Assembly: GCF_009664365.1 (NCBI RefSeq)
Contig: NZ_CP044310.1
Location: 3,731,001 to 3,795,000, forward strand
Direction: 5' to 3'
DNA length: 64,000 nucleotides
From: Paenibacillus xylanilyticus
Lineage (GTDB): Bacteria > Bacillota > Bacilli > Paenibacillales > Paenibacillaceae
Shown: positions 8,565 to 54,325 of the stretch, in pieces
Position numbering within the stretch: the first letter of the stretch is position 1
Layout of the letters: the number at the start of each line of letters is the position of its first letter
Notes under the pieces: model-generated
What the model saw: only the letters and a program-made list of their open reading frames with translations
The model's database searches: none
What the model was told of the DNA's origin: nothing
Program-made: the position numbers and the translations under genes

Positions 8565-8593
8565 GTCATAACCCCTCCTGTTTATTCTTCTAT

Positions 8594-8618
8594 GATTATC
8601 GGCAGATGCCGGATAATC
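8594..8618. other. Inverted repeat just upstream of the binding-protein RBS
   Basis: GATTATC at 8594-8600 pairs with GATAATC at 8612-8618, and GGCA/TGCC extends the stem inward with one bulge. In the minus-strand RNA the hairpin would lie between the permease stop and the binding-protein ribosome binding site and has no U-run. Such intercistronic stems often protect an abundant binding-protein mRNA from decay (established for other operons, inferred here). Confidence 0.45.
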
Positions 8619-8646
8619 CGGTTTTGATTGCAGATTCATTTAAACC

Positions 8647-9567: not shown

Positions 9568-9593
9568 CTCTGTATGTCTCCTTTCCCTGCGTG

Positions 9594-10535
9594 TCAGACA
9601 ATGCCTTGACCGCGAACTTTCTTGGATAGAATGTTAACACTGAAGAGCAGCAGGACACTGATGACGGTTTTGAAAATGCCCACTGCTGTGGAGTACGAGT
9701 AATCCCCGGTCACAAGGCCGAGCCGATATACATAAAGGTCAAGCACTTCAATCCGGTCTGCTATCATGACATTGCTAAATACGAGATATTGCTCGAATCC
9801 CGCAGAGAGCAGGTTACTGACCGAGAGCAGCAAGAGCACAATGAAGGTCGGCATGATGCTCGGCAGCGTAATATGCCAAATGGTGCGCATGCGTCCCGCG
9901 CCATCCACCTTCGCTGCATCATACTGCTCGCTGTCGATGCCAACGATGGCGGCCAGATAGATAATGGCGCTCCAGCCTGCAGATTTCCACAGCAGCAGCA
10001 ACGTTTGTACCGTCCAGACACGGTCATAGTTGCCCAGGATATCAACTGGGGGGCTGCCGATACCCGTTTTTAACATGATCGAATTGACGGCCCCCTCGGT
10101 GCTAAACATGCTGAATGCTAGAGAGAATACGATAATCCAGCTGATATAATTCGGAAGTGTGGACACGGTCTGCACCAGCCGTTTGAACCAGCCGGAACGA
10201 ACCTCCGAAATCAGGATGGCAAGCAGCATCGGTATGGGGGCTGTTGCAATGGACAACAGGCTCAGTGCCAGCGTATTGGCCAGTACGGGGCCCATCCGCG
10301 GATCATCAAACATGTTGCGGAAATTTTCCAGTCCCAAAAACGGGGTTTGTTGAAGCGGAATGCCTGGTTTGTAATCAAAGAATGCATAGATCCATCCGAA
10401 TAAAGGGACATAACTGAAGGCCAGCGTAAACAGGACGAACGGTGTGGCTAGTAGCAGGAGGTGTATGCCGTCCTTGCGGTTCAACTTGCCAGCTCTTTGC
10501 TTTACAGAGCTGTTCAGGGTCTCGGTACGTTGCAT
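9594..10535 (-). CDS. Sugar ABC transporter permease, MalF/LplB type
   Basis: The ATG at 10535 (MQRTETLNSS) is chosen because AAAGGAG lies 8 nt before it; upstream in-frame ATGs lack such a site. The 313-residue product has about six membrane helices, starting with LLLLATPFVLFTLAFSYVPLFGWIYAF around residue 28. The EAA loop reads EQYDAAKVDGAGRMRTIWHITLPSI. This is the LplB subgroup (short N-terminus, FLGLENFRNMF). It forms a heterodimer with the downstream LplC-type permease. It is the first gene of the second minus-strand operon, which has its own regulatory region after the kinase terminator. Confidence 0.95.
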   Translation of the reverse strand: MQRTETLNSSVKQRAGKLNRKDGIHLLLLATPFVLFTLAFSYVPLFGWIYAFFDYKPGIPLQQTPFLGLENFRNMFDDPRMGPVLANTLALSLLSIATAPIPMLLAILISEVRSGWFKRLVQTVSTLPNYISWIIVFSLAFSMFSTEGAVNSIMLKTGIGSPPVDILGNYDRVWTVQTLLLLWKSAGWSAIIYLAAIVGIDSEQYDAAKVDGAGRMRTIWHITLPSIMPTFIVLLLLSVSNLLSAGFEQYLVFSNVMIADRIEVLDLYVYRLGLVTGDYSYSTAVGIFKTVISVLLLFSVNILSKKVRGQGIV

Positions 10536-10581
10536 ATGAATTTCTCCTTTGTGCATGTGCTTTCGTTTGGGCTTATTCATA

Positions 10582-10595
10582 TGGTAACGCTTTCT
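10582..10595. promoter_or_regulatory. cre-like site in the leader of the permease operon
   Basis: TGGTAACGCTTTCT matches 12 of 14 positions of the CcpA site consensus, read as TGWNANCGNTTWCA, with the central CG intact. It lies about 47 bp upstream of the permease start, where CcpA binding could block promoter escape or elongation. Two mismatches make this a weak prediction. Confidence 0.35.
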
Positions 10596-10603
10596 TTTCT
10601 TCA

Positions 10604-10688
10604 CTTGAATGAAGAATCCCTTGATCTGCTTGAAAAAAACAATGCTGCCTCACCAGCTCACTTGAAAAATTTTAGACTTTTGCTTGAA
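10604..10688 (-). promoter_or_regulatory. Four TTCAAG repeats upstream of the permease operon
   Basis: On the minus strand TTCAAG followed by C or T occurs four times, at 10688-10683, 10666-10661, 10634-10629 and 10609-10604. The starts are 22, 32 and 25 bp apart, so two of the intervals are near whole helical turns. They lie between the kinase-operon terminator and the permease gene, which is where the neighbouring YesN-type regulator would be expected to act. No clear -35/-10 pair is visible, which fits an activator-dependent promoter. Confidence 0.35.
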
Positions 10689-10708
10689 CAAATCCACCAC
10701 CACATTAT

Positions 10709-10753
10709 AAAAAAACGCCCTCATGTGCTGCCTTCCGGCCAAGCTCACGAGAG
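10709..10753 (-). terminator. Intrinsic terminator of the GH140/regulator/kinase operon
   Basis: Minus-strand CTCTCGTGAGC (10753-10743) pairs with GCACATGAGGG (10728-10718) with one mismatch, followed two bases later by seven Ts (10715-10709). It lies about 60 bp after the kinase stop and separates that operon from the permease operon. Confidence 0.65.
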
Positions 10754-10813
10754 CATCGATCATTTTGTGTTCGAATGTTGCTGTACCATCATATCCAGAC
10801 ATAAGCTCCTGTT

Positions 10814-12637
10814 TTACAGTCGGTGAACCGGCAATGTAACGATCGCCTTAGCCCCCTGCTCAGCAGGAACGAAGTGAATGCCGAAATCCGGACCATAATA
10901 TAATCGAATCCGTTTATTGACGTTATTGAGCCCGATTCCACTTCCGCCAACGGTGGATTTGGGTGGTTCACCGCTTGCCAGCTTTTCGTTGAGTGCATTG
11001 ATGCTCTCCCTATCCATGCCAATGCCGGAATCTGTGATGCATACCATCAGACGATCATGATCGCCAGAGACACTGATCCTGATCTGGATGGCAAAGTCAT
11101 CGCTCTGTCTGCCTGATGCAATGGAATTCTCCAGCAGCGGCTGCAGAATAAAGCGCGGAACCTGACAATCCATCCACTGCTCATCGACGTCTATCGTGAA
11201 CGTAATGTTATTGTTGAATCGCATGTTGATGATTTTCAAATAGTTGTCCACATACGACAGCTCGTCACGCAGGGAACACATTGAATCTTTGCTGGAGAAA
11301 ACTGGACGCAGAATATTTCCGAGAGCCACAATCGTATTAACAATGTTGTCAGCCTTCACGATAACAGCCATCCAGCGGATCATATTCAGCGTGTTATACA
11401 AGAAATGGGGATTAATCTGATATTGCAATGCCTCCAGCTCAAGCTCCCTCTTCTTCTCTTGAATCTCATTGTTTTTATCCACCAGCTCAACCATGCTGAG
11501 CGACATCTCGTTAAAGCGGCGGATAACCGTGCCCAGCTCATTATTCGGAACATGATCCACGGTGACCCCGAGTTCACCGCGACTCATATCTTTCATTTTG
11601 CTGGACAATTGGTTCAGTGGTTTGATGATTTTGCGCAACCAGAAGTATGAGGCGATAAATATGGCGAGCACGCTAATCGAGAATACCAGTACCAGCATTC
11701 GTTGAACACCCAGGATCTGATCGGCATACTGGCTGAGCGGAATTTCCTTCAGGAGATACCAGCCGCCGTCATGGAGTTTGTAATATACAACCTGCATGCT
11801 GCGTCCACCTTTTTCGTCATCCAAACTTCCGTAAGCTCCGTCCGCCAGCTCCACACCGGGTTTCAAGTGACTCTGCGTACCTACCCGATCCGCCTCACTG
11901 GCCGATAAAACCGTTCCCTCAGCGTTCGCGATATACATGTCTCCTTCTTCGCTGTTCAGCGCTGTAGAGTAGATGGATGACAGATAGCGTTCATCAATAT
12001 TGATGATCAGTGTGGCACTTGTTGTTGGATCATAGATTGCACGAGTTCCCCGCATCAGACTGATTAGATAGCCGTCATCTTTGCCGGTGAGATAAGGGTT
12101 GTAGAATGATTTTTTGATCCCGGAATGGATAATCAGCTGAGGATACTGTTCAAGCGTCTGAAGGAAGGGTTCGGAGGTGAAGAAGCTCTTCTGCCATGCA
12201 TCCCGATCGTAAACGAGCGTCCGCTTCTGGCTTCCTCCAACCGCTCCCAGGTTGTTCGCCGTAATATAGATGGAATCGATATAATTGTAGTTGTCAATAA
12301 AATCCGCAATGACGCGCTGCACATCGTTTTTGGATTCGAGGAATTCCTCTTCCGTTTTCTCCGAAATTTTGTACAAAAACCGCTGAATGTGTTCATCTCG
12401 CAGAAAAAGCATGGATAACCGATCAATCTCCTTCACCAGTCCGCCGATATTATGGTCAAGCTGCTGAAACTGCTGGTATAGCAGGCGTTCATTTTGAATC
12501 TTGATCATGTTTTGCATAAAGGAATAAATAAAATAAGAAGCCCCAGCCAGTACGGCGAGGCTGATGACCATAATATAGAGAATTAGCTGGGTTCTCAGCT
12601 GTCTGGAATCAAAAAGCGATTGGAGGGATTTCTTCAT
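10814..12637 (-). CDS. YesM-type membrane sensor histidine kinase
   Basis: 607 residues. Membrane helices lie at about 17-38 and 311-334 and bracket a roughly 270-residue extracellular sensor. A HAMP linker covers about 335-390. The His_kinase (LytS-like) phosphoacceptor is His411 in QINPHFLYNTLNMIRW. The ATPase domain has an N-box (FILQPLLENSI) and a glycine box ending GGSGIGLNNV. The start codon overlaps the stop of the upstream regulator gene by one base (TAATG), so the two are translationally coupled. Paired YesM/YesN systems sense extracellular glycans or their binding protein and switch on neighbouring import and hydrolase genes (family knowledge). The signal here is probably a product of the pectin-type substrate. 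Confidence 0.95.
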   Translation of the reverse strand: MKKSLQSLFDSRQLRTQLILYIMVISLAVLAGASYFIYSFMQNMIKIQNERLLYQQFQQLDHNIGGLVKEIDRLSMLFLRDEHIQRFLYKISEKTEEEFLESKNDVQRVIADFIDNYNYIDSIYITANNLGAVGGSQKRTLVYDRDAWQKSFFTSEPFLQTLEQYPQLIIHSGIKKSFYNPYLTGKDDGYLISLMRGTRAIYDPTTSATLIINIDERYLSSIYSTALNSEEGDMYIANAEGTVLSASEADRVGTQSHLKPGVELADGAYGSLDDEKGGRSMQVVYYKLHDGGWYLLKEIPLSQYADQILGVQRMLVLVFSISVLAIFIASYFWLRKIIKPLNQLSSKMKDMSRGELGVTVDHVPNNELGTVIRRFNEMSLSMVELVDKNNEIQEKKRELELEALQYQINPHFLYNTLNMIRWMAVIVKADNIVNTIVALGNILRPVFSSKDSMCSLRDELSYVDNYLKIINMRFNNNITFTIDVDEQWMDCQVPRFILQPLLENSIASGRQSDDFAIQIRISVSGDHDRLMVCITDSGIGMDRESINALNEKLASGEPPKSTVGGSGIGLNNVNKRIRLYYGPDFGIHFVPAEQGAKAIVTLPVHRL

Positions 12638-14256
12638 TAGGGCACCCTCTTGTCTTTGTTCGTCGTTTGTCTGCGATATTCATTCGGATTAAGACCGGTG
12701 ATTTTTTTGAAAACCTTGCTGAAATACGTGTACTCCGGCGAAAATCCAACCAAAGCGGGCACATCGGAAGAACGCAGCTGACTTTGGGCAAGCAGCTCCT
12801 TTGCCCTTTCAATTCGGTATCGGTTTACATAATCGATATACGTAATCTGCAGCTCTCTGCGGAACAGGTTACTAAGGTATCCCGGGCTTAATCCAACATG
12901 ATCTGCAACCATTTGAAGACTAATGTTTTCCGTATAATGTCGCTTCACGTACTCAATGGCCCGGGTGATCTCATCACTCATTTGTAAGCGTTTGCTAATA
13001 AATTCAACCAACGTATCCATATATACGAGTACCTGGTCGAGCATATCCGGCATCGTGTCACAAGTTTCCAGATTCTCGGTCATGCTGAGCAGCAGCGTTT
13101 TTTCGTTGTTATGATCATATACATGCGTATTGACCCACTGCACGAACTGGTAGATGGTGATCTCCATGGATTTTCGCTCTTGGTTCATGCCACGTTCCAT
13201 CTCATCCAGCCATTCATCATATTCTTTCTCTTTGAGTTTTGGCAGCAATTCTCGAATGGATGTGTGGTTTCGAATCTGTTCAAGCCTGGCAAGCACACCA
13301 GTATAGTCAGCCCGCCCGGTTCCTTGATGCTGCTGTCCGGAGCCTGTGATGAATTTGCGCTGCAATGCCCGTTGTGCTTCGGCGTATTGTCTGGGGAGCG
13401 AATCATACCCTCCGTTGACACTGCTGATCCCAAACGAAACGGTACTGTTAAAATAATGGCGAATGGTATCCTGAATATGTTCGAGCAGTTGACGAATTTC
13501 CTGCACGATGGCTTGTTCGGACAGCAGATCAGCAAAATGCAGCACAAGTGCGTAGTGCCGGTCGTTAATCTGAACTGCTTCTCCTCGTTTATAACCGGAC
13601 ATAATCTCGCTTAATATGTTTAACAGCGACATCTTGACCAGATGACCATGCTCATCCCGGAAACGTTCCTTGAGCGAAACATACCGGTCCACTTCCATCA
13701 CGCAAACGACCAAGCGAACAGGCGAGAGGCGAAGGCCGCTGTCTGTAATGAAACTGGCAAATTCCTCCGCTGAAAAGATACGGTAGAACATAAAATCCTT
13801 AAACATCTTTTCCTTCACAAGCTCCATATCCGGGGATGCTGCAGCTGCTCTGCCCTGAACATGGGTTGAGTTATGCTGCTGATCCAGCTCTTCCCTGACC
13901 CCGGTCAACACTTGCTCAATCTCTTCTTCCGTCATCGTCAGCTTCAGAATATAACTGGATACGTCCAGTGTAAGTGCTTTGCGAGCAAGCTCGAACTCTT
14001 CCAAACAAGATAGCACAACGACACGCGTATATTTGTCCTGCTTGCGGATGTTGGAGATCAGCTCCATGCCATCCATTCTTGGCATACTGATATCGGTAAT
14101 GACCACATCGGGTTTCTCGCGCTCATAATAGTCCCATGCAGATTGGCCATCCGGAAAATCGGCGGACACCTTAAGCCCAAATTTGCTCCATTCGACGGAA
14201 TTTTTCAGTCCGATGCGAACCAGCATTTCATCCTCGACAATCATTACCTTATACAT
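12637..14256 (-). CDS. YesN-type response regulator, receiver plus AraC-type DNA-binding domain
   Basis: 539 residues. The N-terminal receiver has the acidic pair in MIVEDE, the phosphoacceptor Asp55 in VVITDISMP, and the conserved switch residues. A long middle region links to an AraC/XylS double helix-turn-helix at about 435-535 (ENISLQMVADHVGLSPGYLSNLFRREL, then DVPALVGFSPEYTYFSKVFKKITG). It is cotranscribed with the kinase downstream and with the GH140-like gene upstream (3-nt gap, AAAGGGG 8 nt before its ATG). It probably activates the permease operon and perhaps its own operon. Confidence 0.95.
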   Translation of the reverse strand: MYKVMIVEDEMLVRIGLKNSVEWSKFGLKVSADFPDGQSAWDYYEREKPDVVITDISMPRMDGMELISNIRKQDKYTRVVVLSCLEEFELARKALTLDVSSYILKLTMTEEEIEQVLTGVREELDQQHNSTHVQGRAAAASPDMELVKEKMFKDFMFYRIFSAEEFASFITDSGLRLSPVRLVVCVMEVDRYVSLKERFRDEHGHLVKMSLLNILSEIMSGYKRGEAVQINDRHYALVLHFADLLSEQAIVQEIRQLLEHIQDTIRHYFNSTVSFGISSVNGGYDSLPRQYAEAQRALQRKFITGSGQQHQGTGRADYTGVLARLEQIRNHTSIRELLPKLKEKEYDEWLDEMERGMNQERKSMEITIYQFVQWVNTHVYDHNNEKTLLLSMTENLETCDTMPDMLDQVLVYMDTLVEFISKRLQMSDEITRAIEYVKRHYTENISLQMVADHVGLSPGYLSNLFRRELQITYIDYVNRYRIERAKELLAQSQLRSSDVPALVGFSPEYTYFSKVFKKITGLNPNEYRRQTTNKDKRVP

Positions 14257-41459: not shown

Positions 41460-44400
41460 TTAATCAGCTACGGCTGTCTGCACCGGGCCAAGATTGGTCA
41501 GGCTGACACCAGACAACGTAATTGTGGTGTTACCATCTTCGGCACCTGTAATATTCCCCATATCAAATACGATACGGCTGTTTGCATAGCTTGGTTCGGT
41601 TGTATCGAATGTGAAGGTGTACTCTTGTTCTTCCGTGGATAAGCTCACTTGCTGCCCATAAAATCCATGCCACTCGTATCCAGCGGGAACATCCACCCAG
41701 CCGATACCAACCCCCATTTTGCGCGCTTTATCCGCTTTGGCCTTGAACGTCAGCTTATACTTGGTTCCCTGCTGCATTGCAAAACCTTCATTAATAACCT
41801 GCCGGTCCCACGGATTCGTTCCCGCCTGACCGATTACAGCTTGCAGCTGCTGATTCTCAACATGAATGGCAAGGTCAGACTCAACACCGGCTGCATATTT
41901 GAACCAGCCTTCGATTCCTTTGGCAAAGTCCCCATTCGGGATCAGATTGACGTGTACCGGCTGTCCCCCCAGATCCGCACCCGGGTTCACTTCGAACAAC
42001 ATCACATTTTGAATGGATACACTGTGCTCTTCCGCTAGCGGTCTGCCCAGACCAAAGTTCAGTAAGGCCGCCGCATCCGCTGTTTCTCCCATTGTAAATG
42101 TGAAGGTGTATGGCTGCTTAATTTCAGTCAGATCTACCTTTTCATCCATATACTTGGCTTCGCCGCCATTACCTTGCGAGACCACAGCCTGTATTGATTT
42201 AGGTGCAGAGGCTGAAGCATCAAAGCTCAGACGATAGGTCTTGTCAGCCTCAAGAGCAATCGAACCCTGCTGCAAAAACGAATCCCACTCATCGTCGGTT
42301 GCAGCCGGCAACGTAATATTAATTCCATGGTCTTTCCCATACGTAGCCGAGAGCACGTCGGGAATTAGCGCCCAATCCGTTCCATCTGCGGTCAGTTCGC
42401 CATTGCTTACTTTATTCTGTGAAACATCCAACCAACGTGTATTATATTCGTTTCCTTCAAAATTCACATAATACGATGTTCCGGCTTTCAGTGAAACTGC
42501 TGGCAGATATACCGTCTTATAGGATTGCCATCCCCCCGTATCTCCAAGCAGAAGTTCGGAGCTTGCCACGGTTGTGCCTTGTTCATCCTGCACACTGAAT
42601 CGGACTTTTGAATCAGCTTCGGCACTTGCCAACCTTGTAGAGAATGCATATACGCCATCATTTGCTGCATCGATTTTGAATTGCAGCAGATCACCTTCGT
42701 CCATGTAGCTGACATGTTTGCCGCCTTCATCGGAATTTTCGAGCTGCAGACCTTGCATCATCCATGCATCCGTAGCAGGAATATGAGTATAGCCCTGGAT
42801 CGTAACCGGCTTTCCTCGTTTGGTCAGCTTCACATTGTCAATGTAGACCTTCCCTTCGGAACTGCCGAATAAAAGCTTCAGTTCGGCTGTTACCGTTGCT
42901 GCTGACGTAGCATTCTGTCCAATCACAATTTCACCCGAATAATTCTTGAGTTCCTGCCCAAGTTGGATCTGCTGCCCTTGATTCACCTGCACATCATGCC
43001 CCTCTGCGGTTGACAAATCCAAATCCATCGTACGTGGCGTATCTGCCTTGGCATCAAAAGAGAATCCGTAGGTAGTGCCCGCTTCCAGCTTCATTCCCGG
43101 CTGTACCACAGCCACCTGATCAGGATGGCCGTTCGTTCGCAAAACGTCGACCACGAGCTGCCGTTCCATGATCGGAAACTTCAGGAAGTTGTTCACGGTA
43201 ATCTGTGCTTCAGCATCAGACTGAACCTGTTTGGACCAGAAGCCGAGGCGATCCTTCCCTTGATCAAATGTGCCATTAAAGACATAATTTCCATCCGACA
43301 GTGCGTTGCGTTCCACCGGAAGAGAGTCGGCTTCACCGATATCCGTCAACCGCACATTGGTCACCGTAACTTCCCCTTCATTCAACCCCAGATTGAATTC
43401 AAACCTTGCATTGTTGTCTGCCCCATTCCGCATGTTGAAGGTGTATTCATACGGTTGCCAATCTGTAGTTAATGAGAAGCTCTTATCGTCGGAGTAATTT
43501 GTCCAGCTTTTTTCAAACTGTGTCACTTTCGAACGAATGACACGATCAGCAGATGCCTTGGCATCGAACTGCACCTTGTATTTTCTATTTTTCTTCATAT
43601 ACATCGGCATTTGTGTCAGTTGTACGGAATAACTTTCGGTTCCGGCTTGTGAGATCGTTACTTTCGCTGCCTTGCCCTTCTGCACATCATCAATAACCTC
43701 TACCTTACCAGCCCCGCCTGCATTCGTGATGAAGTTCCATTCGTTTGGTACACCATCTACATCCACCCCTTCAGAAAAGCGTTCATTGTAGATCTGGTTT
43801 CCATCCGCTTGCGGTTCTCTCTGCCATTCAGGTTCGATCGGATTAGATGTTACGTCCGGCCATTCGCTCAATTTCTTGTACTCGTAAACCCGAACGAAAT
43901 CAACATTCATCTTCTCAGAGACAAAATCACTTTCCGGCGATCCAGGCCAGTCTCCCCCAACGGCAAGGTTGAGTATTAAATAGAACGGACGGTCAAACGG
44001 AGCAGGAAAAGTGTAACTCTCCGGCTGTCCCGCTGCAGTCGTCTCCCAGTTATTTACCTGATGATGCAGTTTGCCGTCAACATAGAAACGAATCATGCCA
44101 GGCAGCCATTCCACCTGAAAATCATGATAATCATCAGCGAACGATTCACCTTGTGGCAAGCTAAACTTGCCTTGATCATGCCCGTGTGAACCGTCTGGTT
44201 TTGGGAAATCGTAATGGATCGTGCTGTATACTTCATGATCTTTGTTTGTACCTCCAATCAACTCCATAATGTCGATTTCCCCGGAAGCAGGCCATCCTCC
44301 ATAATGAGCTTCGTTCGTAGGCATCATCCAGATTGCTGGCCACATGCCCTGTTGGATGGGAAGTTTGGCCCTCACTACCACTTTTCCATATGTCCAGTCG

Positions 44401-45950
44401 CCCTTCTCTTTCGTAATCAGTTTACCGGAAGTATAATTTTTGCTGCCCTTCTGCTCCCGCTTTGCTTCAATCTGCAATACATTGTGGTTGCCATCCTTAA
44501 CTATACGTGTGTTATTCGGGCTGTAATATTGTAACTCATTGTTGTACACAAGCTCCGTATCCTGGACGGTCCATTTGGATGCATCCACGGAAGGCGCATT
44601 GAATTCATCATTCCAAACCATTTCCCAATGCTCATCCGGAATCGTCGTTGCAGGAATCGGTTTTTCACCTGAAGGATTGCCCGGTACGGATGGTGTCGTT
44701 CCGCCTGAATTGGAAGAGCCGCCCCCACCTGTACTGGAATTATTGCCACCGTTAGAAGTACCTGGTGCAGCAGGGTTTGGTTGCTCGGACTGTCCTGTCC
44801 CAGGCATAGTGCTATCCTTGTATTGTCCTAGTGCAACCGCTTTCCCATTAAGCAATACGTTGTCTGCATCTACGTCCAGCTGATTGATTTTACCTTTGCT
44901 GTCAATTATGGTATTACGGGCTTTGCTGCTTACTTTTAATGTATTAATCGTACTCTCGGCAGACAACTCAACTGTAGCCTTTTGTTCAATAAACAAGTTT
45001 TCAATTTGAGTTGTGCCTGTGATCTTCACATGTACCGGACTGGTGTTTTTGTCTACCACAACTCGATTTAGTTTGGAGTTATGAATATCGATCGAGTGGC
45101 TTCCTCCGCCTTTCACGATTACACTTCCAGTGACCGTTACTCCGTCGAGCTTCACTGTACCTTCTCCAATGGCTTCTGTAAGGAGCAAGTTGCCGTTAAC
45201 TGTTGTATTTTTCAGTGTCACATCTGTTGAGCGAACAATCAGATTTCCATCTACGTTGGATTCATAGGTGCCGGGTTTGCTTTGAATATCTGCTATCAAC
45301 GTAGACATGATCGTAGCAGCTTCTGCTCTCGTAATGTTGGATGCAGGTGCAAGATTACCGTTGTATCCGTTTACAATTTTATTGTTGATAAAGTAATTCA
45401 TCGCATTCCTAGCATAATCAGCTACATCTTTGTCGTCTTTAAACGCAGAACCGAGCGATTTATTCTCACTGCCTGTCGATAACTGAAACGCACGATCTGC
45501 CATCACGACAGCATCCTGCCGGGTAATCGGAAGCTGGGGGGACAGATGTGTTGCATCAGTTCCCTGAATAATGCCAGATCCACTTGCTCGTGTGATCGCA
45601 TCATAGTACCAGTCTTTTTCACTAATGTCTGTGTATGACGCCGCGCCGGGGCCTCCAGCGAATCCGAACACCCGATCGAGCATTACAACAAATTCGGCAC
45701 GGCTGATACGTTCACTCGGTCTGAATGTGCCGTCCGTATAACCTTTAGTGAGCGCCATATCCTGCATACGCATCACTGCATTTTCAGCCCAATGTCCCTG
45801 TAAATCTTTGTACGGTGACCGAAGCAGGCTTGACGCCTGCTCCTGCTCCGTTACCATTTGCTGCTTCATCTGTTCTGCCCCGACTACGGCCGGAGCTGCC
45901 AGTGAAACGATCATGCTTCCTGCTACGAGACAAGCCAACCCTTTTTTCAC
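41460..45950 (-). CDS. SLH-anchored multimodular GH16 beta-glucanase (laminarinase-like)
   Basis: 1496 residues from a GTG with GGGAGG 7 nt upstream; an ATG seen in between is in another frame. Order: signal peptide 1-25; three SLH domains about 45-220; a beta-solenoid of short repeats about 230-370 (VDGNLIVRS, VNGNLLLTE, GSVIVKGGG); Gly/Ser/Pro linker; GH16 at about 438-695 with the catalytic motif GEIDIMELIG (Glu558 nucleophile, Glu563 acid/base); two CBM4/9-like modules; a CBM6-like module (about 1060-1190, WMMQGLQLEN); two more CBM4/9-like modules. It hydrolyses beta-1,3-glucan while held on the cell wall (family knowledge). It is 42 nt downstream of the permease pair and so is cotranscribed with the matching importer. 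Confidence 0.93.
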   Translation of the reverse strand: MKKGLACLVAGSMIVSLAAPAVVGAEQMKQQMVTEQEQASSLLRSPYKDLQGHWAENAVMRMQDMALTKGYTDGTFRPSERISRAEFVVMLDRVFGFAGGPGAASYTDISEKDWYYDAITRASGSGIIQGTDATHLSPQLPITRQDAVVMADRAFQLSTGSENKSLGSAFKDDKDVADYARNAMNYFINNKIVNGYNGNLAPASNITRAEAATIMSTLIADIQSKPGTYESNVDGNLIVRSTDVTLKNTTVNGNLLLTEAIGEGTVKLDGVTVTGSVIVKGGGSHSIDIHNSKLNRVVVDKNTSPVHVKITGTTQIENLFIEQKATVELSAESTINTLKVSSKARNTIIDSKGKINQLDVDADNVLLNGKAVALGQYKDSTMPGTGQSEQPNPAAPGTSNGGNNSSTGGGGSSNSGGTTPSVPGNPSGEKPIPATTIPDEHWEMVWNDEFNAPSVDASKWTVQDTELVYNNELQYYSPNNTRIVKDGNHNVLQIEAKREQKGSKNYTSGKLITKEKGDWTYGKVVVRAKLPIQQGMWPAIWMMPTNEAHYGGWPASGEIDIMELIGGTNKDHEVYSTIHYDFPKPDGSHGHDQGKFSLPQGESFADDYHDFQVEWLPGMIRFYVDGKLHHQVNNWETTAAGQPESYTFPAPFDRPFYLILNLAVGGDWPGSPESDFVSEKMNVDFVRVYEYKKLSEWPDVTSNPIEPEWQREPQADGNQIYNERFSEGVDVDGVPNEWNFITNAGGAGKVEVIDDVQKGKAAKVTISQAGTESYSVQLTQMPMYMKKNRKYKVQFDAKASADRVIRSKVTQFEKSWTNYSDDKSFSLTTDWQPYEYTFNMRNGADNNARFEFNLGLNEGEVTVTNVRLTDIGEADSLPVERNALSDGNYVFNGTFDQGKDRLGFWSKQVQSDAEAQITVNNFLKFPIMERQLVVDVLRTNGHPDQVAVVQPGMKLEAGTTYGFSFDAKADTPRTMDLDLSTAEGHDVQVNQGQQIQLGQELKNYSGEIVIGQNATSAATVTAELKLLFGSSEGKVYIDNVKLTKRGKPVTIQGYTHIPATDAWMMQGLQLENSDEGGKHVSYMDEGDLLQFKIDAANDGVYAFSTRLASAEADSKVRFSVQDEQGTTVASSELLLGDTGGWQSYKTVYLPAVSLKAGTSYYVNFEGNEYNTRWLDVSQNKVSNGELTADGTDWALIPDVLSATYGKDHGINITLPAATDDEWDSFLQQGSIALEADKTYRLSFDASASAPKSIQAVVSQGNGGEAKYMDEKVDLTEIKQPYTFTFTMGETADAAALLNFGLGRPLAEEHSVSIQNVMLFEVNPGADLGGQPVHVNLIPNGDFAKGIEGWFKYAAGVESDLAIHVENQQLQAVIGQAGTNPWDRQVINEGFAMQQGTKYKLTFKAKADKARKMGVGIGWVDVPAGYEWHGFYGQQVSLSTEEQEYTFTFDTTEPSYANSRIVFDMGNITGAEDGNTTITLSGVSLTNLGPVQTAVAD

Positions 45951-45992: not shown

Positions 45993-46871
45993 CTACTCTT
46001 TTACTGCCCCAATGACGATACCTTTAACGAAAAAGCGTTGTAAGAATGGATATATGACCAAAATCGGCAATGCCCCGATGAAAATCTGTGCAGCGCGAAC
46101 CGTACGCTGGGAAACATTCTCCAGCATGGATGGGTCCACGTTGATTTTACTGAGGTCTTGCTGCACGATAATGGTTTGTAGCAAGGAAGCCAGTGGGTAA
46201 TTTTTGACATCGGACATATAAATCATGCCGTCGAACCAAGAGTTCCACTGACCTACCATGGTAAACAATGACAAGGTTGCAATCGCAGGCATGGATAGCG
46301 GTACATATACCAGTGCCAGCGTTTTAATGTGACCTGCTCCATCCAGATAAGCTGCTTCCTCCAGCTCTTTAGGCAGACCACGGAAGAAGTTCATCATCAG
46401 GATAACATTCCACACGGACAATGCACCTGGCAGCACCAGTGCCCAGATCGTATCCATCAGTCCTAGTTTCTGGACCAAGATATAACTTGGAATTAGACCT
46501 CCGCTGAACAAAATCGTAAATACAAAGAACCAGGTGTAGATCGAACGGCCTTTGAAATTAATATCTTCCTTCGACAGAGGAAATGCTGTCAGAAGCATAA
46601 TCACCATACCGATCACCGTAGCAATGACGGTTCGTTTAACCGAAACCAGCAAGGAATTAATGAAATTCGAATTGCCGAACGTTTTGACATATGCGTCTGT
46701 CGTAAAGCCAATCGGCCAGAAGCCGACAAGATTGGCTGAGGCCGGTGCCATGCTGCTGAACGAAACGGCCAAAATATGAATAATAGGCAGAATGCAAAGC
46801 AGTGATAATACGCCCAGAAAAATATAGTTCGCAACGCTGAATATTCGATAGCCTTTTGTTTTGTAATACAA
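45993..46871 (-). CDS. Sugar ABC transporter permease, MalG/LplC type (glucan locus)
   Basis: 292 residues with about six membrane helices, first at about 13-35 (VANYIFLGVLSLLCILPII). The EAA loop is LEEAAYLDGAGHIKTLALVYVPLSMP. The C-terminus QRFFVKGIVIGAVKE marks it as LplC/YtcP type. It begins 18 nt after its partner permease and ends 42 nt before the SLH-GH16 gene. It probably imports beta-1,3-gluco-oligosaccharides made by that enzyme (context inference). No ATPase gene is nearby. Confidence 0.95.
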   Translation of the reverse strand: MYYKTKGYRIFSVANYIFLGVLSLLCILPIIHILAVSFSSMAPASANLVGFWPIGFTTDAYVKTFGNSNFINSLLVSVKRTVIATVIGMVIMLLTAFPLSKEDINFKGRSIYTWFFVFTILFSGGLIPSYILVQKLGLMDTIWALVLPGALSVWNVILMMNFFRGLPKELEEAAYLDGAGHIKTLALVYVPLSMPAIATLSLFTMVGQWNSWFDGMIYMSDVKNYPLASLLQTIIVQQDLSKINVDPSMLENVSQRTVRAAQIFIGALPILVIYPFLQRFFVKGIVIGAVKE

Positions 46872-46889: not shown

Positions 46890-47855
46890 CTAGAACACGC
46901 GGTAATTCGCCAATTTGTAAGCCATGCGATATGAGATCACGATCAGAATGGTTGCCACGACCGATTTGAACAATCCTACTGCCGTTGCGAAGCTCATTTT
47001 GCCGTTCAAGATACCAAGACGGTATACGAAGGTATCGATGATATCACCTTTGTCATAAACGAGCGGATTGTACAGATTGAACACCTGATCGAACCCTGCA
47101 TTCAAAATGTTTCCGATGGAGAGTGTCATGAGTACAATCGTGATCGGCATCAGGGCTGGAATCGTAATGTGCAGTGTTTGTTTGAACCGGTTTGCACCGT
47201 CCACTTCCGCAGCTTCGTACAGTGCCGGGTTAATACCGGACAGAGAAGCCAGAAATACAATCGTACCAAAGCCAAATTCTTTCCACACATCACTAACAAT
47301 CAGTGTTATCCGAAACCAAGTTCCATCCCCCAGGAAAAAGATCGGATCTCCGCCTAGTGCAACGACCAGTTTGTTCACCATGCCGCCCTGCGGCGAAAGA
47401 ATATCAAGCAATATTCCGCCCAGGATAACCCATGACAGAAAGTGCGGCAGATACACCAGTGTTTGACTGACCCTTTTAAAAGCAGATAAACGAACTTCGT
47501 TCAACAAAATCGCAAACAGGAATGGAGCAATTAAACCTGCGACTATTTTGAAAAATGCAATCACCAGTGTATTCCAGATGACCTGGCCTACGTCCGGGTA
47601 TAAGAATAAATACTTGAAATTATCCCAACCTACCCATTTGGATTCGGTAAATCCGAGGTATGGTTTAAAATCCTGGAAAGCAATCACAATCCCGCCCATT
47701 GGTATGTACTGAAAAACAATTGCCAGCAAAACAGCTGGTACGAGCATCAAATGCAAGGACCAATTCCGTTGCATGTTCCAGCGCTGTCTCGCCTTGATGG
47801 CACGCCCCTTGCGAGGCGTTTCTAACGTATGTTCCTTCACCCCTACATCCCCCAT
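46890..47855 (-). CDS. Sugar ABC transporter permease, MalF/LplB type (glucan locus)
   Basis: 321 residues from the ATG at 47855. A GTG at 47840, preceded by GGGGGATGTA, is an equally plausible start and would remove five residues. About six membrane helices, first at about 33-55 (LMLVPAVLLAIVFQYIPMGGIVIAF), and an EAA loop ALYEAAEVDGANRFKQTLHITIPALMP. It is the first gene of the permease-GH16 operon and is divergent from the YesM-type kinase. The promoter region has a -10 box TATAAT and the 14-bp motif shared with the binding-protein promoter. Confidence 0.95.
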   Translation of the reverse strand: MGDVGVKEHTLETPRKGRAIKARQRWNMQRNWSLHLMLVPAVLLAIVFQYIPMGGIVIAFQDFKPYLGFTESKWVGWDNFKYLFLYPDVGQVIWNTLVIAFFKIVAGLIAPFLFAILLNEVRLSAFKRVSQTLVYLPHFLSWVILGGILLDILSPQGGMVNKLVVALGGDPIFFLGDGTWFRITLIVSDVWKEFGFGTIVFLASLSGINPALYEAAEVDGANRFKQTLHITIPALMPITIVLMTLSIGNILNAGFDQVFNLYNPLVYDKGDIIDTFVYRLGILNGKMSFATAVGLFKSVVATILIVISYRMAYKLANYRVF

Positions 47856-47903: not shown

Positions 47904-47948
47904 ATTATAGCAACGGTTATTAGCAATCTATATCCTAATATTGCAACA
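47904..47948 (-). promoter_or_regulatory. Permease-operon promoter with shared TGTTGCAATATTAG motif
   Basis: On the minus strand TGTTGCAATATTAG (47948-47935) is followed after 25 bp by the -10 box TATAAT (47909-47904). No -35 consensus is seen, which suits activation by the adjacent YesN-type regulator bound near -45. The same 14 bases occur before the distant binding-protein gene at nearly the same spacing. Confidence 0.65.
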
Positions 47949-47987
47949 ACGATAACAATATTTTAATGAGTTGAGGGAGGCCCAGCA

Positions 47988-49697
47988 TTGTTCGCACGCC
48001 TGAACGTCTTCACCAAAATTACACTGTTGTTTGTAGCACTGCTTGTCCTAGTTTTGTTCCTGTACACCTATTCAAACCGGGAAAGTGTACGTGTAATCGA
48101 ACACGAAATTCAGAATAATACCATGAATCATTTGTCCACTTTTGCCGACTCTGTAGAATCCAATATTTACCAATTATCTCTCTATGGGATGTCCATTGGG
48201 CAAGATTCGAGCATACAGGAATATCAGCGCCCGGATTACAAAGATGTGCCATATGAACGGGTCAAAGTTGGAAGTGCTATTCTTGAAAAAATGAATCTGT
48301 ATAATGCAGCCAGCAAATGGCATTCGACCATCACACTCTATTTTCCTAGGTTGCAAAAAGTCATTTCCACGGATTATTATGCTTATATCCCGTATGCGGA
48401 GGATGAATTTTCCAAGCCACTTTCGAAATCATGGGCATATAAGCAGAATCAATTTGTGTGGTACACGACCGATCCAACGACAGCGATCGACACCCCTGGG
48501 AAGTCGAGACTCATTACCAAGATCAGCTTTCCAGTGCATCATTTGATCAGTATGCTGGACCAGAACAAATTGAATAACAAAGGTGACCCTTTTATGTTCC
48601 ACCCCGAGTTTGGCTTAATTAGCAACACCAGTGGAAATGGCACATTAACTGCGATTCAGTCCAAGCTGAAAGAGATGCCTTTGCAGGAAAAAGGCGGATT
48701 CACCACGACGCTTGACCGCACAGAATACTATGTTTCGTACATACAGTCAGGCAGTCTGGGATGGTACTATGTAGACTACGTGCCTATGCAGCAAATTCTA
48801 GGGCCGATCACAAATAGTCGTAATCTCTTCTACGCTTCCATAGCCGTTCTAATTGCCATGAGTGTTGTGGTTTTGTATGTGCTGTATCGTAGCGTACAGC
48901 TCCCATTGCTTCAACTGGTGAAGGGAACGAACCGTTTGTCGACTGGAGATTTCTCTGTTCGATTACATCATTCTTCACGTAATGAATTCAGTTTATTGTT
49001 TGCACGATTTAACATCATGGCACAGCGAATTCAGGAGTTGATTGAGAACGTGTACGAAGAACAACTCCGAAGACGTGAGGCCACATTGAAGCAGTTGCAA
49101 TCACAGATTAATCCGCATTTCCTATACAACTGCCTCTTCTACATCAAAAATATGGCGAGGATGAAAAATGAGAAAGCCGTTGTGGCGATGGCGCTTAATT
49201 TAGGTGAGTATTATCGGTACATCACCAGATCCGAGAATGATCAGGCCACCGTCAAAGAAGAATTGAACATGGTGAAAAATTACCTGGAAATCCAGGCACT
49301 CCGGCTGGAACGCATGCATTTTACCATCGATGTACCGGATGATATGCTTCATAAAACGTTACCGCGTTTAAGCTTACAACCTATCGTTGAGAACGCTATC
49401 ATTCATGGCATTGAACCCCGTACTGAAGACGGTCATATCAACATAACAGGTTATCATACGGATGAATGGTGTACGATAACCGTCGAGGACAGCGGGCTGG
49501 GTATGACGGAGAATCAGATGCAAGAATTGGTTGATAATCTTAACAAACCGCTCGATGGCAACATGGGATGTGGAACTTGGAATGTTCATCAGCGTTTGTC
49601 TTTTTTGTATGGTGAAGACGCGGGTCTAAGCTATGAACATACGCCTGGCGGAGGCGTTAAGGTAAGCATTACATGGTACAACAATATCAATGAGTAG
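47988..49697 (+). CDS. YesM-type membrane sensor histidine kinase (glucan locus)
   Basis: 569 residues from a TTG with GGGAGG 7 nt upstream. Membrane helices at about 10-28 and 280-300 flank an extracellular sensor of about 250 residues. A HAMP linker follows. The phosphoacceptor is His377 in QINPHFLYNCLFYIKN. The ATPase end has LSLQPIVENAIIHG and VEDSGLGM. It immediately precedes its regulator gene, which begins 9 nt after its stop. It is divergent from the permease-GH16 operon and probably senses extracellular glucan fragments, directly or through the binding protein. Confidence 0.95.
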   Translation: MFARLNVFTKITLLFVALLVLVLFLYTYSNRESVRVIEHEIQNNTMNHLSTFADSVESNIYQLSLYGMSIGQDSSIQEYQRPDYKDVPYERVKVGSAILEKMNLYNAASKWHSTITLYFPRLQKVISTDYYAYIPYAEDEFSKPLSKSWAYKQNQFVWYTTDPTTAIDTPGKSRLITKISFPVHHLISMLDQNKLNNKGDPFMFHPEFGLISNTSGNGTLTAIQSKLKEMPLQEKGGFTTTLDRTEYYVSYIQSGSLGWYYVDYVPMQQILGPITNSRNLFYASIAVLIAMSVVVLYVLYRSVQLPLLQLVKGTNRLSTGDFSVRLHHSSRNEFSLLFARFNIMAQRIQELIENVYEEQLRRREATLKQLQSQINPHFLYNCLFYIKNMARMKNEKAVVAMALNLGEYYRYITRSENDQATVKEELNMVKNYLEIQALRLERMHFTIDVPDDMLHKTLPRLSLQPIVENAIIHGIEPRTEDGHINITGYHTDEWCTITVEDSGLGMTENQMQELVDNLNKPLDGNMGCGTWNVHQRLSFLYGEDAGLSYEHTPGGGVKVSITWYNNINE

Positions 49698-49706
49698 GTG
49701 AAGTAC

Positions 49707-51347
49707 ATGTTACAGTTGTTGTTAGTTGATGATGAACGTTCCGTTGTAGAAACGCTGGCGGAAACCATTCCGTGGGAAAGCTGCGGAATCGGCACTGTAC
49801 ACGAAGCTTTGTCAGGTGCCGTAGCACTGGAAATTATGGAGAATCATGATATTGATATTGTAATCACGGATATTCGCATGCCGGAGATGTCCGGTATTGA
49901 GTTAATCACGACAATTCACGAGAAATGGTCGCATGTGCAGACTATTTTACTCTCGGGCTATGCTGACTTCGAATACGCCAAACAAGCGATGGCTCAGGAA
50001 AGCTTTGATTATTTGCTGAAACCTGTAAGTGATGAGGATCTAATCGAAACCGTACAGCGGCTTGTTGACCGGATCAAACAAAAATGGGAAGCGGCTGCCT
50101 CCTATCAACGTGCCTTGCATGCATTCCAGGATAACTTGCCTTTATTGCAATCTACGATGCTCCATGAATTGCTGACAGGCAAAACCTATTCTCCCTCAAC
50201 GCTCGCAGACAAGCTCGAATTACTACATCTGCCCTATTCGGTTGGTGAGGAGCTGGGCATGCTTGTTATTCGAATGGAAGAGCATCTATCCGAAATGGCT
50301 GACCATGATCTTTCGCTGATGCAGTATGCCATTAGCAACATTATCAGCGAGGTGACGCAGCAGCATTTTCATATGTGGCATACGCGGGATGTCCATGATT
50401 ATCTGGTTGTGCTGGTTAGTGTCAAAAAAGGCGGCACACAAAGTGTGAGCAAAGAGGAAAAACCTCAAGTGCTGCTGGAACATTACGCTGCCCAAATTCA
50501 GACAAACGTTCAGTTATATTTAAAAGGGGCTATTTCAATCGCTGTGTCTCACTGGGGTAAGTTTCCTAATGAGATTGGAGAGATTTATGAGAGTGCCGTC
50601 CGATCCATGCGGAAGCGTATGGGACATGCTCAAGGCTTGTTCATTACGGCATCAGATGATAAGGATGTACATCCCCTTCCTGCCATCCGCTCTCTGTACA
50701 AGCCCCCAACCCTCATCAGTCTTCTGGAAGCTGGCCGCTTTGAGGATGTGGAACAAAAGATTAATGTCATTTTCGAGGAATTGCTCGAATCGGCGCAGCA
50801 TCATGATATCGCAGAAACGACAATTGAGGTTTATCATGCTTTGGCAGGGGCTTTTGCTTATATCATCCACAAAAACGGAAAACAGATCTCTTCTGTCCTG
50901 CCTGCCGAAATGTATAAATACTTTCAAGCTCCAAGCTATGCTACTGCCCAGCAGTTGAAAGACTGGTCGATCCGCACACTGCATTCCATCAGTGATGACG
51001 CAGAACAGGAGCTGAAGGACAATCACAGTACCATCGTTCGCAGTGTCAAAAGCTTTGTGGATCTGCATCTGGCTTCCGATGTTTCCTTACCGGCTATTGC
51101 CGAGCATGTCCACCTGCACCCAGTGTATCTATCCAAGGTATACAAGGCGGAGACAGGAGAAGCGCTGACGGCCTATGTCTATCGGTTACGGATGGAGAAA
51201 GCAGCGTATTATTTGCGTTCGTCCAGCGCCAAAGTATTCGAAATTGCGGAGCTTGTCGGTTACAACAACACGGCGTATTTTATTCGGGTATTTAAAAAGT
51301 TTTACGATCTGACACCGCAGGAATATAGAGAGAATCTGCCGGTTTGA
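49707..51347 (+). CDS. YesN-type response regulator with AraC-type DNA-binding domain (glucan locus)
   Basis: The ATG at 49707 (MLQLLLVDDE) has AGGTG 6 nt upstream; a GTG at 49698, right after the kinase stop, has no RBS. 546 residues. The receiver has phosphoacceptor Asp55 (IVITDIRMPE). The C-terminal AraC domain spans about 445-545 (DVSLPAIAEHVHLHPVYLSKVYKAET, then KVFEIAELVGYNNTAYFIRVFKKFYDLTPQEYRE). It is cotranscribed with the kinase and is the likely protein that binds the shared 14-bp motif before the permease and binding-protein genes (inference). Confidence 0.95.
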   Translation: MLQLLLVDDERSVVETLAETIPWESCGIGTVHEALSGAVALEIMENHDIDIVITDIRMPEMSGIELITTIHEKWSHVQTILLSGYADFEYAKQAMAQESFDYLLKPVSDEDLIETVQRLVDRIKQKWEAAASYQRALHAFQDNLPLLQSTMLHELLTGKTYSPSTLADKLELLHLPYSVGEELGMLVIRMEEHLSEMADHDLSLMQYAISNIISEVTQQHFHMWHTRDVHDYLVVLVSVKKGGTQSVSKEEKPQVLLEHYAAQIQTNVQLYLKGAISIAVSHWGKFPNEIGEIYESAVRSMRKRMGHAQGLFITASDDKDVHPLPAIRSLYKPPTLISLLEAGRFEDVEQKINVIFEELLESAQHHDIAETTIEVYHALAGAFAYIIHKNGKQISSVLPAEMYKYFQAPSYATAQQLKDWSIRTLHSISDDAEQELKDNHSTIVRSVKSFVDLHLASDVSLPAIAEHVHLHPVYLSKVYKAETGEALTAYVYRLRMEKAAYYLRSSSAKVFEIAELVGYNNTAYFIRVFKKFYDLTPQEYRENLPV

Positions 51348-51351
51348 AGCA

Positions 51352-51389
51352 AAAAGGCCTCGCTGGAATGATTTCCAGCAAGGCCTTTT
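51352..51389. terminator. Bidirectional terminator between regulator and binding-protein genes
   Basis: AAAAGGCCTCGCTGGAA (51352-51368) pairs with TCCAGC-AAGGCCTTTT (ending 51389) with one bulge. The tail is TTTTCTTTG on the plus strand and TTTTTGC on the minus strand. The genes on both sides converge on it. Confidence 0.9.
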
Positions 51390-51465
51390 CTTTGTACTTT
51401 CCCACCTGCTTTAGCAGCTTGGTTAGAACGAAATAACGGATAAGATTTAATTACTTGGCTCGTAC

Positions 51466-53151
51466 TTACTTTCCGCTCGTAACGGATTGGTACCACTCAT
51501 TAACTTCCATCGTATTTTGATCTCCACCGGAAGACTTCCACTTCTCTACAAACGTATCAAAAGCATCGATCGGAGCTTTACCATAGATGATTTGCGAGAA
51601 CAGGTCCTTCTCCATTTTGGTTAAGATGTCGTTGTTCATTTGCATTGACATCGTTGGTGCACCTGTGAACATCTGTTTTAAAGCAATATCTTTTTGATCC
51701 TGAACAATCTTGGCCGCTTCCACCATGGGTACCGGTACACCAGACTTAAGTTTTTTCTCGAAAGGTGTTGTGGCTTCTTCACCGTTAGCAAACTTCGCAA
51801 GCGTAGCCATGTTCAGACTTGGGATACGTGCACCATCAAATGTTAATGTGTATTTCTCAGGTGCATAACCGCCGGTCACACTAGCATCCGTTGTTACTTT
51901 GCCGTCTTTCATTGCCCAGTCATATCCTTCAGCGAAGCCATTTTCGAATTCATCGCCTGCTTTTGGATTAGCATAGTGATCAAATAGATAGTTTTGATAT
52001 GTGAAAAAGACTTCAGGGTTCTTCATATCTTTGTTAATCAGAATTACACCGTTGTCGTTCGCGGTACCTCGTCTGCCTGCCTTTCCATCAGGTCCAGATG
52101 GAATCGGGTAAGCTTTGTACTCCGCTTCCGGATGGTTTTTCTTCACATCTTCGAGCGGCCATGACGGCATCCAGTGAGGCCCCACAACAATCCCTGCTTT
52201 ACCTGCTGTAAACTCTTCCGCTGCTTTGGTTTCATCATATACCCCAGCTTCTTCTGGAATATATCCTTTTTTCATCCAGTCAGCCAGTGTTGCCAAAGCT
52301 TGTTTTGCTCCTGGATTTACTGAACCGTACTCCAGTTTGCCTTCTGCATTCAGATTCCACTGGTTTGGCATCGTGCCGTAGGCTCCGAAGACCCAACCAG
52401 CATCAGACATCCATGTGCTGAGCCAGTTTTTGAATCCGATGGTCAGGCCGTAAGTGTCTTTTTTACCATTGCCATCCGGGTCTTTATTCGTAAACGTTTC
52501 CATAATCACTTCAAGATCAGCTAGCGTTTCAGGTGCCTTCAAATTAAACTTCTTCATCCAATCCTCGCGAATCCACATCACTGGATCACTATTGTAGGAG
52601 TAATCCAGAATCGGAATACCAATCCGTTTACCATCCTGCATGTACGGATACCATACGGAAGGATCTTCATTCACGGCAGCTTTCCAGGTATCACTTGCAT
52701 ATTGATCAAACAATTCACCAGCATCAACGAACTTGCCCGTTTCAATCAGCTCACGTGCCAGATTGAAATCGCCGCGATACGAAATGATGTCCGGCATTTC
52801 TGCATTGGAAGCCAGCGACAGGCGCAGCTTCGTTTCAAACGCATTGTTGGTGGACGGTGATACCCACTGATTTTTTAATTCAATGCCGAGCTTGTCTTTT
52901 GCCCATTTGGTGTGCACGTTATTGTCCTGATCTTCACCAGATTTGAATTTGATTTCGGGTCCCCAGGGACGTAAATAAGTAAGTGTTACGGGTGGATCAT
53001 ACTTCCCGTCCTTCAATTCCAGTGCAGTACTCGGTGTGCTCGGTGCAGCCTCTTTGCTTGCTCCACTGTTACATCCGCTAAGAACTGCTGTAAGCGCCAA
53101 CATTCCTGCCAAAGCCAAACCGCCAATCTTTCTTTTCTTGATTGTTTTCAA
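51466..53151 (-). CDS. Extracellular sugar-binding lipoprotein (family 1, glucan locus)
   Basis: The TTG at 53151 is the likely start: GGGGG lies 9 nt upstream and it opens a proper signal (KTIKKRKIGGLALAGMLALTAVLSGC). 561 residues; lipobox LSGC gives a lipid-anchored Cys at about residue 27, then an Asn/Ser/Gly tether. The mature domain is the long solute-binding protein 1 type, with TFTNKDPDGNGKKDTYGLTIGFK and WMKKGYIPEEAGVYDETKAAEEFTAGKAGIVVGPHW. It serves the permeases encoded 4-6 kb away. It forms its own unit convergent with the kinase/regulator genes, unusual because binding-protein genes are normally next to the permeases. Confidence 0.93.
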   Translation of the reverse strand: MKTIKKRKIGGLALAGMLALTAVLSGCNSGASKEAAPSTPSTALELKDGKYDPPVTLTYLRPWGPEIKFKSGEDQDNNVHTKWAKDKLGIELKNQWVSPSTNNAFETKLRLSLASNAEMPDIISYRGDFNLARELIETGKFVDAGELFDQYASDTWKAAVNEDPSVWYPYMQDGKRIGIPILDYSYNSDPVMWIREDWMKKFNLKAPETLADLEVIMETFTNKDPDGNGKKDTYGLTIGFKNWLSTWMSDAGWVFGAYGTMPNQWNLNAEGKLEYGSVNPGAKQALATLADWMKKGYIPEEAGVYDETKAAEEFTAGKAGIVVGPHWMPSWPLEDVKKNHPEAEYKAYPIPSGPDGKAGRRGTANDNGVILINKDMKNPEVFFTYQNYLFDHYANPKAGDEFENGFAEGYDWAMKDGKVTTDASVTGGYAPEKYTLTFDGARIPSLNMATLAKFANGEEATTPFEKKLKSGVPVPMVEAAKIVQDQKDIALKQMFTGAPTMSMQMNNDILTKMEKDLFSQIIYGKAPIDAFDTFVEKWKSSGGDQNTMEVNEWYQSVTSGK

Positions 53152-53194
53152 CTTGTGAGTCCCCCTGTATGTAGTGATGTTGTCTACAGAGTCC

Positions 53195-53240
53195 ATCATA
53201 ATGAATGAACCATATGAATGCCCATACTAATATTGCAACA
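53195..53240 (-). promoter_or_regulatory. Binding-protein promoter with the shared TGTTGCAATATTAG motif
   Basis: On the minus strand TGTTGCAATATTAG (53240-53227) is followed after 26 bp by TATGAT (53200-53195), a plausible -10 box about 45 bp upstream of the start codon. No good -35 is present. Motif and spacing match the permease-operon promoter at 47904-47948. Confidence 0.6.
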
Positions 53241-53281
53241 TTTATTGTATTAATTTAGGATATTAAAAAGTGAATATGGAT

Positions 53282-53413: not shown

Positions 53414-53457
53414 CATAAAAAAACAGAGGATTGCGGAAGTAATCCGCTCCTCTGTTT
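53414..53457 (-). terminator. Terminator of the lichenase gene
   Basis: On the minus strand AAACAGAGGA (53457-53448) pairs with TCCTCTGTTT (53430-53421), with an inner CGGA/TCCG stem, followed by a T-run. It lies about 45 bp after the stop. Confidence 0.85.
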
Positions 53458-54311: not shown

Positions 54312-54325
54312 TAAAAGCGCTTACA
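54312..54325. promoter_or_regulatory. cre-like site upstream of the lichenase gene
   Basis: TAAAAGCGCTTACA on the plus strand (TGTAAGCGCTTTTA on the minus) matches 13 of 14 consensus positions, with a strong GCGC core. It is about 100 bp before the lichenase start, consistent with glucose repression through CcpA. Confidence 0.65.

Follow-up and report, generated by a model that had tools for sequence, protein, structure and literature searches.

The 64,000-nucleotide stretch of the Paenibacillus xylanilyticus genome analyzed here (the window) contains a carbohydrate-uptake locus in which two minus-strand promoters share the element TGTTGCAATATTAG. One promoter precedes two permease genes of an ATP-binding cassette (ABC) importer and the other precedes the gene of its solute-binding protein. 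Between them lie genes for a YesM-type sensor kinase and a YesN-type response regulator. The element is very probably the operator through which this regulator activates both promoters, a prediction that combines genome comparisons with published expression data from a relative.

Architecture of the locus and its shared element

The features on which the argument depends are as follows.

47926..47948, minus strand: permease-promoter site TGTTGCAATATTAGGATATAGAT (14-mer at 47935-47948), which includes the core TTGCAATATTAGGATATAG
47904..47912, minus strand: extended -10 of the permease promoter, TGCTATAAT
53218..53240, minus strand: binding-protein-promoter site TGTTGCAATATTAGTATGGGCAT (14-mer at 53227-53240), a conserved footprint across relatives
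53195..53200, minus strand: -10 box TATGAT of the binding-protein promoter
53245..53263, plus strand: probable second half-site TTGTATTAATTTAGGATAT, inverted, at the binding-protein promoter only (from a shuffle test and a conserved block)
49698..51347, plus strand: YesN-type response regulator with REC and AraC-type helix-turn-helix (HTH) domains, the proposed binder (Pfam PF00072, PF12833, PF00165; start possibly ATG 49707)
47988..49697, plus strand: YesM-type sensor histidine kinase, transcribed away from the permease genes (Pfam PF06580, PF00672, PF02518)
46890..47840, minus strand: ABC permease 1, the first gene past the permease site (GTG 47840 the likely start)
45993..46871, minus strand: ABC permease 2 (BPD_transp_1, as permease 1)
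41460..45950, minus strand: very large GH16 laminarinase, anchored to the S-layer and carrying CBM4/9 and CBM6, 42 bp past permease 2
51466..53154, minus strand: solute-binding protein (likely TTG start at 53154; PDB relatives AlgQ1/AlgQ2)
53414..53456 (approximate ends), minus strand: probable intrinsic terminator (hairpin and T-run) that separates the GH16 beta-glucanase gene from the promoter of the binding-protein gene

Exact copies of TGTTGCAATATTAG occur in the window at 47948-47935 and 53240-53227, 5.3 kb apart and in the same orientation on the minus strand, as the original prediction had described. The whole 6,447,596-bp genome holds only these two copies, both at these promoters, where about 0.07 would be expected from the window's base composition; the genome search proposed earlier as a safeguard against random copies revealed no others. 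When the two 150-bp promoter regions are compared, their top ungapped similarity is TGTTGCAATATTAGnAT, a score equaled by none of 200 dinucleotide-shuffled pairs and, with 220-bp regions, by none of 100. The 14 bp first proposed form the core of a longer site of about 21 bp.

Inexact matches are at background level. Up to three mismatches to the 14-mer give 8 matches in the window against 6.6 expected. Genome-wide, with up to two mismatches allowed, the 14-mer has 36 places and its reversed control 73; for the 21-mer the corresponding counts are 36 and 39. A wider regulon was rejected because two-mismatch matches are no more frequent than those of the reversed controls for either length. Individual inspection covered the one-mismatch matches L003/L124 and L004/L125 and the two-mismatch place L005, with 31 other two-mismatch 14-mer places and the inexact 21-mer places outside it. 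The one-mismatch matches were rejected as additional targets because they fall within long coding frames, presumably for a transporter-like and an ABC-ATPase-like protein. L005 sits between that transporter-like frame and another long frame that we take to resemble a sigma-54-type regulator.

The spacing between element and promoter is nearly identical at the two positions. Direct measurement gives 25 bp from the 14-mer to TATAAT (47909-47904) at the permease promoter and 26 bp to TATGAT (53200-53195) at the binding-protein promoter, in agreement with the gaps first noted. The accompanying statement that neither promoter has a -35 consensus holds for the permease promoter, where TATAGA lies 17 bp from the -10 and matches three of six consensus bases. 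It does not fully hold for the binding-protein promoter, where the weak candidate TGGGCA lies at 18 bp with four of six. Counted by convention from the -10, the site spans about -52 to -29 and overlaps the -35. This placement, upstream of or overlapping the -35 at a fixed distance from the -10, is that of an AraC/XylS-type activator site as predicted from sequence. At the binding-protein promoter an inverted second half-site is detectable, its score being reached by 11 of 1000 shuffles when compared with the permease half-site and by 2 of 1000 with the genus consensus. A direct-repeat partner of the XylS type was rejected at this promoter, the direct-orientation score being just 5.0.

Kinase and regulator genes together occupy 47988-51347, between the two sites, as originally proposed for the regulator. 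The regulator joins a REC domain (PF00072, residues 8-119) to an AraC-type HTH domain (PF12833, residues 467-545) whose top PDB matches are 6swi and 3lsg. The adjoining kinase combines HAMP and PF06580 domains, and with the linked sugar ABC importer this constitutes a system of YesM/YesN type. The interval 47949-47987, which separates the permease site from the kinase gene, holds the minus-strand block TTAAAATAT, kept in most compared genomes. This block may be the -10 region of a divergent kinase promoter; if so, the permease site would cover the -35 of that promoter, suggesting autoregulation.

The laminarinase gene is probably carried on the permease transcript. The solute-binding protein has no Pfam or NCBIfam match at an E-value of 0.001. 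The binding-protein gene appears to form its own transcription unit, because a hairpin and T-run precede its promoter; a 60-base stretch here folds at -26.7 kcal/mol, and a simple scan had listed the hairpin on the plus strand only. The longest open reading frames of the binding protein (ATG 53199) and permease 1 (ATG 47855) probably start too early. The later starts, TTG 53154 and GTG 47840, are favored because they follow G-rich stretches resembling ribosome-binding sites, and because ATG 53199 lies inside the -10 box.

The single-domain GH16 gene that lies after the binding-protein gene (minus strand) encodes a protein that passes the NCBI cut-off for beta-glucanase BglS. Upstream of it, AAAAGCGCTTACA at 54313-54325 resembles the CcpA cre consensus.

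Conservation and co-inheritance with the regulator

Among 75 congeners, the exact 14-mer occurs in 36, with 59 copies in total against 11 for the reversed pattern. A binding-protein ortholog of about 80% identity or more is likewise present in 36 of the 75 (G005 and G055 have 388- and 469-residue fragments), and the two listings name the same 36 genomes. All 59 copies are accounted for by the permease promoter (33 of 36) and the binding-protein promoter (26 of 36). In alignments of these 36 genomes and two named loci, the most conserved 14-column windows are the permease site at one promoter and the binding-protein site with its upstream arm at the other; the median window is 86% conserved in the first alignment and 70% in the second. 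An ungapped alignment that took in 26 of 28 distinct 42-base site variants yields the extended core TTGCAATATTAGNATNNNNAT, common to all 26. No such site was found in the Cohnella silvisoli locus L024, the sole distant relative among the named loci with permease, kinase and binding-protein homologs, whose regulator is 41% identical.

The family-wide sample of 394 genomes links the element to the regulator. The extended pattern occurs in 50 of these genomes and its reversed control in none. YesN orthologs of at least 64% identity are found in 52 genomes, followed by a gap down to 47%; these calls scored three first-look candidates per genome, so an ortholog could be missed. The pattern is present in 48 of the 52 genomes with an ortholog, as against 2 of the 342 without. 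About 1.9 chance matches are expected, and the 250 bp around the matches in those two genomes (G220 and G372) look unlike these promoters by eye. The four ortholog-bearing genomes that lack the pattern include three (G310, G313 and G298) that retain the core and differ in the last bases of the pattern, and one (G116) with a single core change.

Conservation at the promoters is strict. Each of the 51 compared permease promoters holds the 19-bp core TTGCAATATTAGGATATAG, even where the regulator is just 64% identical, and each has a 25-bp gap from TTAG to TATAAT, while the bases separating site and -10 vary. Among 43 binding-protein promoters scored with a loose -10 pattern, the gap is 26 bp in 38, 25 bp in three and 28 bp in one, with no -10-like match in the last; a 44th, that of G116, is without the site.

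The association also persists where the locus has been rearranged. Of the 16 orthologous loci outside the genus, 8 have the binding-protein gene away from the regulator, in one genome on another contig. Each of the eight displaced genes carries (T/A)GTTGCAATCTTAGTATAG in its promoter, and the binding-protein site is kept in 15 of the 16 loci. The remaining locus, that of G116 (L241, G116:C23:179600-193200), is apparently decaying. A search confined to these 13.6 kb found no permease homolog, its binding-protein promoter has no recognizable site, and the permease-type site now precedes the laminarinase gene, with G replacing the C of TTGC. The G116 locus retains the regulators, the laminarinase and the binding-protein gene.

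Proposed operator function and alternative explanations

Published expression data from Paenibacillus sp. JDR-2 bear directly on how these promoters are controlled. In that strain the cluster Pjdr2_0947-0953 responds to barley β-glucan (PMC4765114), and its seven gene kinds are those of the present locus, namely two regulators divergent from two permeases, an S-layer homology (SLH)-anchored GH16, a single-domain GH16 and a binding protein. The two arrangements differ in that the single-domain GH16 and binding-protein genes lie here on the opposite side of the regulators. By RNA-seq, expression increases 1451-fold for permease gene 0949, 1498-fold for permease gene 0950 and 1221-fold for binding-protein gene 0953, as compared with 25-80-fold for enzyme genes 0951/0952 (PMC4765114). 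On β-glucan, reads per kilobase per million (RPKM) reach 3602, 5522 and 5381 for 0949, 0950 and 0953 but just 170 and 124 for 0951 and 0952 (PMC4765114). This profile fits two strong promoters, at 0949 and 0953, and is a poor fit to a single read-through transcript. The JDR-2 study treats the genes as an apparent operon, and the available portion of its text names no operator (PMC4765114). Genome G351, which has the JDR-2 gene order, carries the site before both the permease and the binding-protein genes; there a hairpin and T-run follow the second enzyme gene, and then come the site and the binding-protein gene. In the present window, the exact motif is not found upstream of the single-domain GH16 gene, so control of that gene may differ from JDR-2.

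The best-supported interpretation is that the element is a site for activation by YesN, on the basis of co-inheritance, strict -10 spacing, confinement to the locus and the β-glucan induction reported in JDR-2. It agrees with the activator role first suggested for the intervening regulator, with binding itself a prediction. The original prediction further held that the element could define a binding sequence for the regulator family. That extends, as a prediction, to this one regulator; it does not extend to the YesN family, since promoters of another YesMN locus in this genome share a motif unlike this one.

We infer YesN binding, its need for phosphorylation, the mode of activation and the ligand in this species. 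In the mechanism we propose, products of β-1,3(4)-glucan would be sensed and the YesM-type kinase would phosphorylate YesN. Phosphorylated YesN would then bind a half-site of about 17-21 bp, TTGCA-N3-TTAGnAT, whose span of about -52 to -29 overlaps the -35 position, and would recruit RNA polymerase to two promoters with a good -10 and a poor -35. One promoter would drive the two permeases and the surface laminarinase, and the other the binding protein. At the latter a second, inverted half-site would lie upstream, so the activator may touch one well-placed half-site while its second subunit is positioned differently at each promoter.

Several observations weigh against this interpretation or temper it. 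An inverted second half-site lacks significance at the permease promoter, where 196 of 1000 shuffles score as high, leaving no clearly common dimer architecture at the two promoters. TGGGCA, at 18 bp, could serve as a weak -35 of the binding-protein promoter. The exact 14-mer is not universal even within the genus, with one to three changes in 10 of the 36 binding-protein promoters and one change (TCTTGC for TGTTGC) in 3 of the 36 permease promoters. The Fisher p-values for the co-inheritance, 2e-54 in the family and 3e-22 in the genus, are overstated because the genomes are related and kinship is ignored. The high conservation of the DNA-binding domain of YesN counts in favor of the interpretation, this domain being 79-88% identical against 60-70% for the rest of the protein in 10 of 11 orthologs (97% against 87% in the eleventh, which is closer), but the contrast is drawn among orthologs of this YesN alone. 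Finally, the binding-protein site fits only box A of the XylS half-site, its box B being GTATG rather than GGNTA.

The link between element and YesN is indirect, and the genome contains 127 AraC-type HTH_18 matches, many of which could conceivably bind. A different regulator, encoded elsewhere, could therefore use the element at both promoters. We consider this improbable, since the element tracks the YesN ortholog across the family and a global regulator would require sites elsewhere, whereas the genome-wide mismatch searches are at background. A core-promoter element, such as an unusual -35, an UP element or an alternative sigma site, could likewise be tightly spaced from the -10 and overlap the -35. 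This explanation is very improbable: a gap of 25-26 bp separates the 14-bp core from the -10, which is too wide for a -35, such sites show no genomic excess, and their distribution follows YesN. The importer genes of JDR-2 are, moreover, near-silent without β-glucan, with RPKM of 2.5-4.4 on yeast extract (PMC4765114).

Copying of a promoter can likewise yield a shared 14-mer, and related genomes would inherit the copies, so coincidence or a functionless duplication must be weighed as well. We assign it hardly any probability, given that none of the 200 shuffled pairs equals the observed similarity and that the 19-bp core is letter-perfect in every compared permease promoter while the bases between site and -10 vary. 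Operation of the element as a YesN-bound activator site is thus the explanation we favor.

Related systems and implications

Another YesMN system of the genome carries a shared promoter motif of its own, and a further one may do so. At the paralogous importer locus L123 (system B), beside a gene that is presumably GH53, GTGCAGAAATMTTGKTTTYGTGAC occurs at the kinase and binding-protein promoters (C1:2301297-2301318 and C1:2304983-2305004), with no shuffle among 100 equaling the score for 220-bp regions. The permease promoter of this locus has the motif partially at best: 3 of 100 shuffles reach its score against the kinase promoter and 31 of 100 against the binding-protein promoter, where the best segment is not the motif. 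With up to one mismatch, the short form of the motif is found in 63 of the 75 congeners (78 places; reversed control 0), and about 25 of these places, checked by eye, precede a binding-protein gene by about 70-120 bp. At locus L122 (system A, C1:5613000-5625000), AAATCAATAT at the kinase and binding-protein promoters is weak (16 of 200 and 6 of 100 shuffles), and the binding-protein promoter block is well conserved. The window itself holds a second YesM/YesN-like pair (10814-14256) with two permeases and a binding protein apparently of its own (6816-14256, minus strand throughout).

Whether each YesMN-importer pair has a private operator, confined to the promoters of its own system, is to our judgment an evenly balanced question. 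The generalization draws on two systems, because the L122 motif is weak, and some promoter pairs from different systems also score fairly high, up to 12.5, where the two motifs claimed here reach 14.5 and 16.5.

Local two-component control of sugar importers is a known arrangement, as illustrated by predicted regulons in Caldicellulosiruptor bescii and by promoter binding of XydR. The C. bescii pairs AviRS, BxgRS, AxuRS, GxgRS and MosSQ resemble the present system in that two-component regulators control sugar ABC importers locally and have predicted sites; in three of the five systems with AraC-type domains the sites precede promoter elements, and an activator role is assigned to these three (PMC8579813). 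Their sites are tandem repeats with large spacers, in contrast to the single half-site at the permease promoter and the inverted pair at the binding-protein promoter described here (PMC8579813). XydS/XydR of Clostridium cellulolyticum is similar in that a REC and AraC-type regulator activates plant-polysaccharide genes, with DNA binding demonstrated by mobility shift (PMC3572039). However, the DNA bound by XydR was delimited no more closely than about 250-270 bp, and the available portion of the report gives no matching consensus and no site at its own kinase gene (PMC3572039).

A further parallel is the XylS half-site TGCA-N6-GGNTA, which the permease site matches exactly as TGCA-ATATTA-GGATA, a match with no chance level attached (PMC9722767, PMC5481539). 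XylS differs in binding two direct repeats and in being induced by benzoate-type effectors instead of phosphorylation (PMC9722767, PMC5481539). The available portions of PMC4194401 and PMC10766802 yielded nothing on where such regulators bind. Searches of the open-licence literature turned up no operator published for this locus, with an unseen report in subscription journals possible.

Soil Firmicutes encode many YesN-type response regulators, few of which, to our knowledge, have a defined binding sequence. The present locus supplies a concrete candidate for a regulator of this poorly supplied family, namely a compact, highly conserved predicted operator at two promoters together with a candidate inducer, soluble β-glucan. 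With operator and inducer proposed, two short DNA fragments would suffice to test the regulator, the residues it uses for recognition and the geometry of activation. The same interpretation predicts a regulated promoter of its own for the binding-protein gene, which in JDR-2 has been regarded as part of an apparent operon (PMC4765114). Comparison of promoters within a locus may be widely applicable, given the number of AraC-type HTH_18 matches in this genome. If private operators prove to be the rule for YesMN-importer pairs, the DNA-recognition code of the YesN family could become readable from genomes alone.

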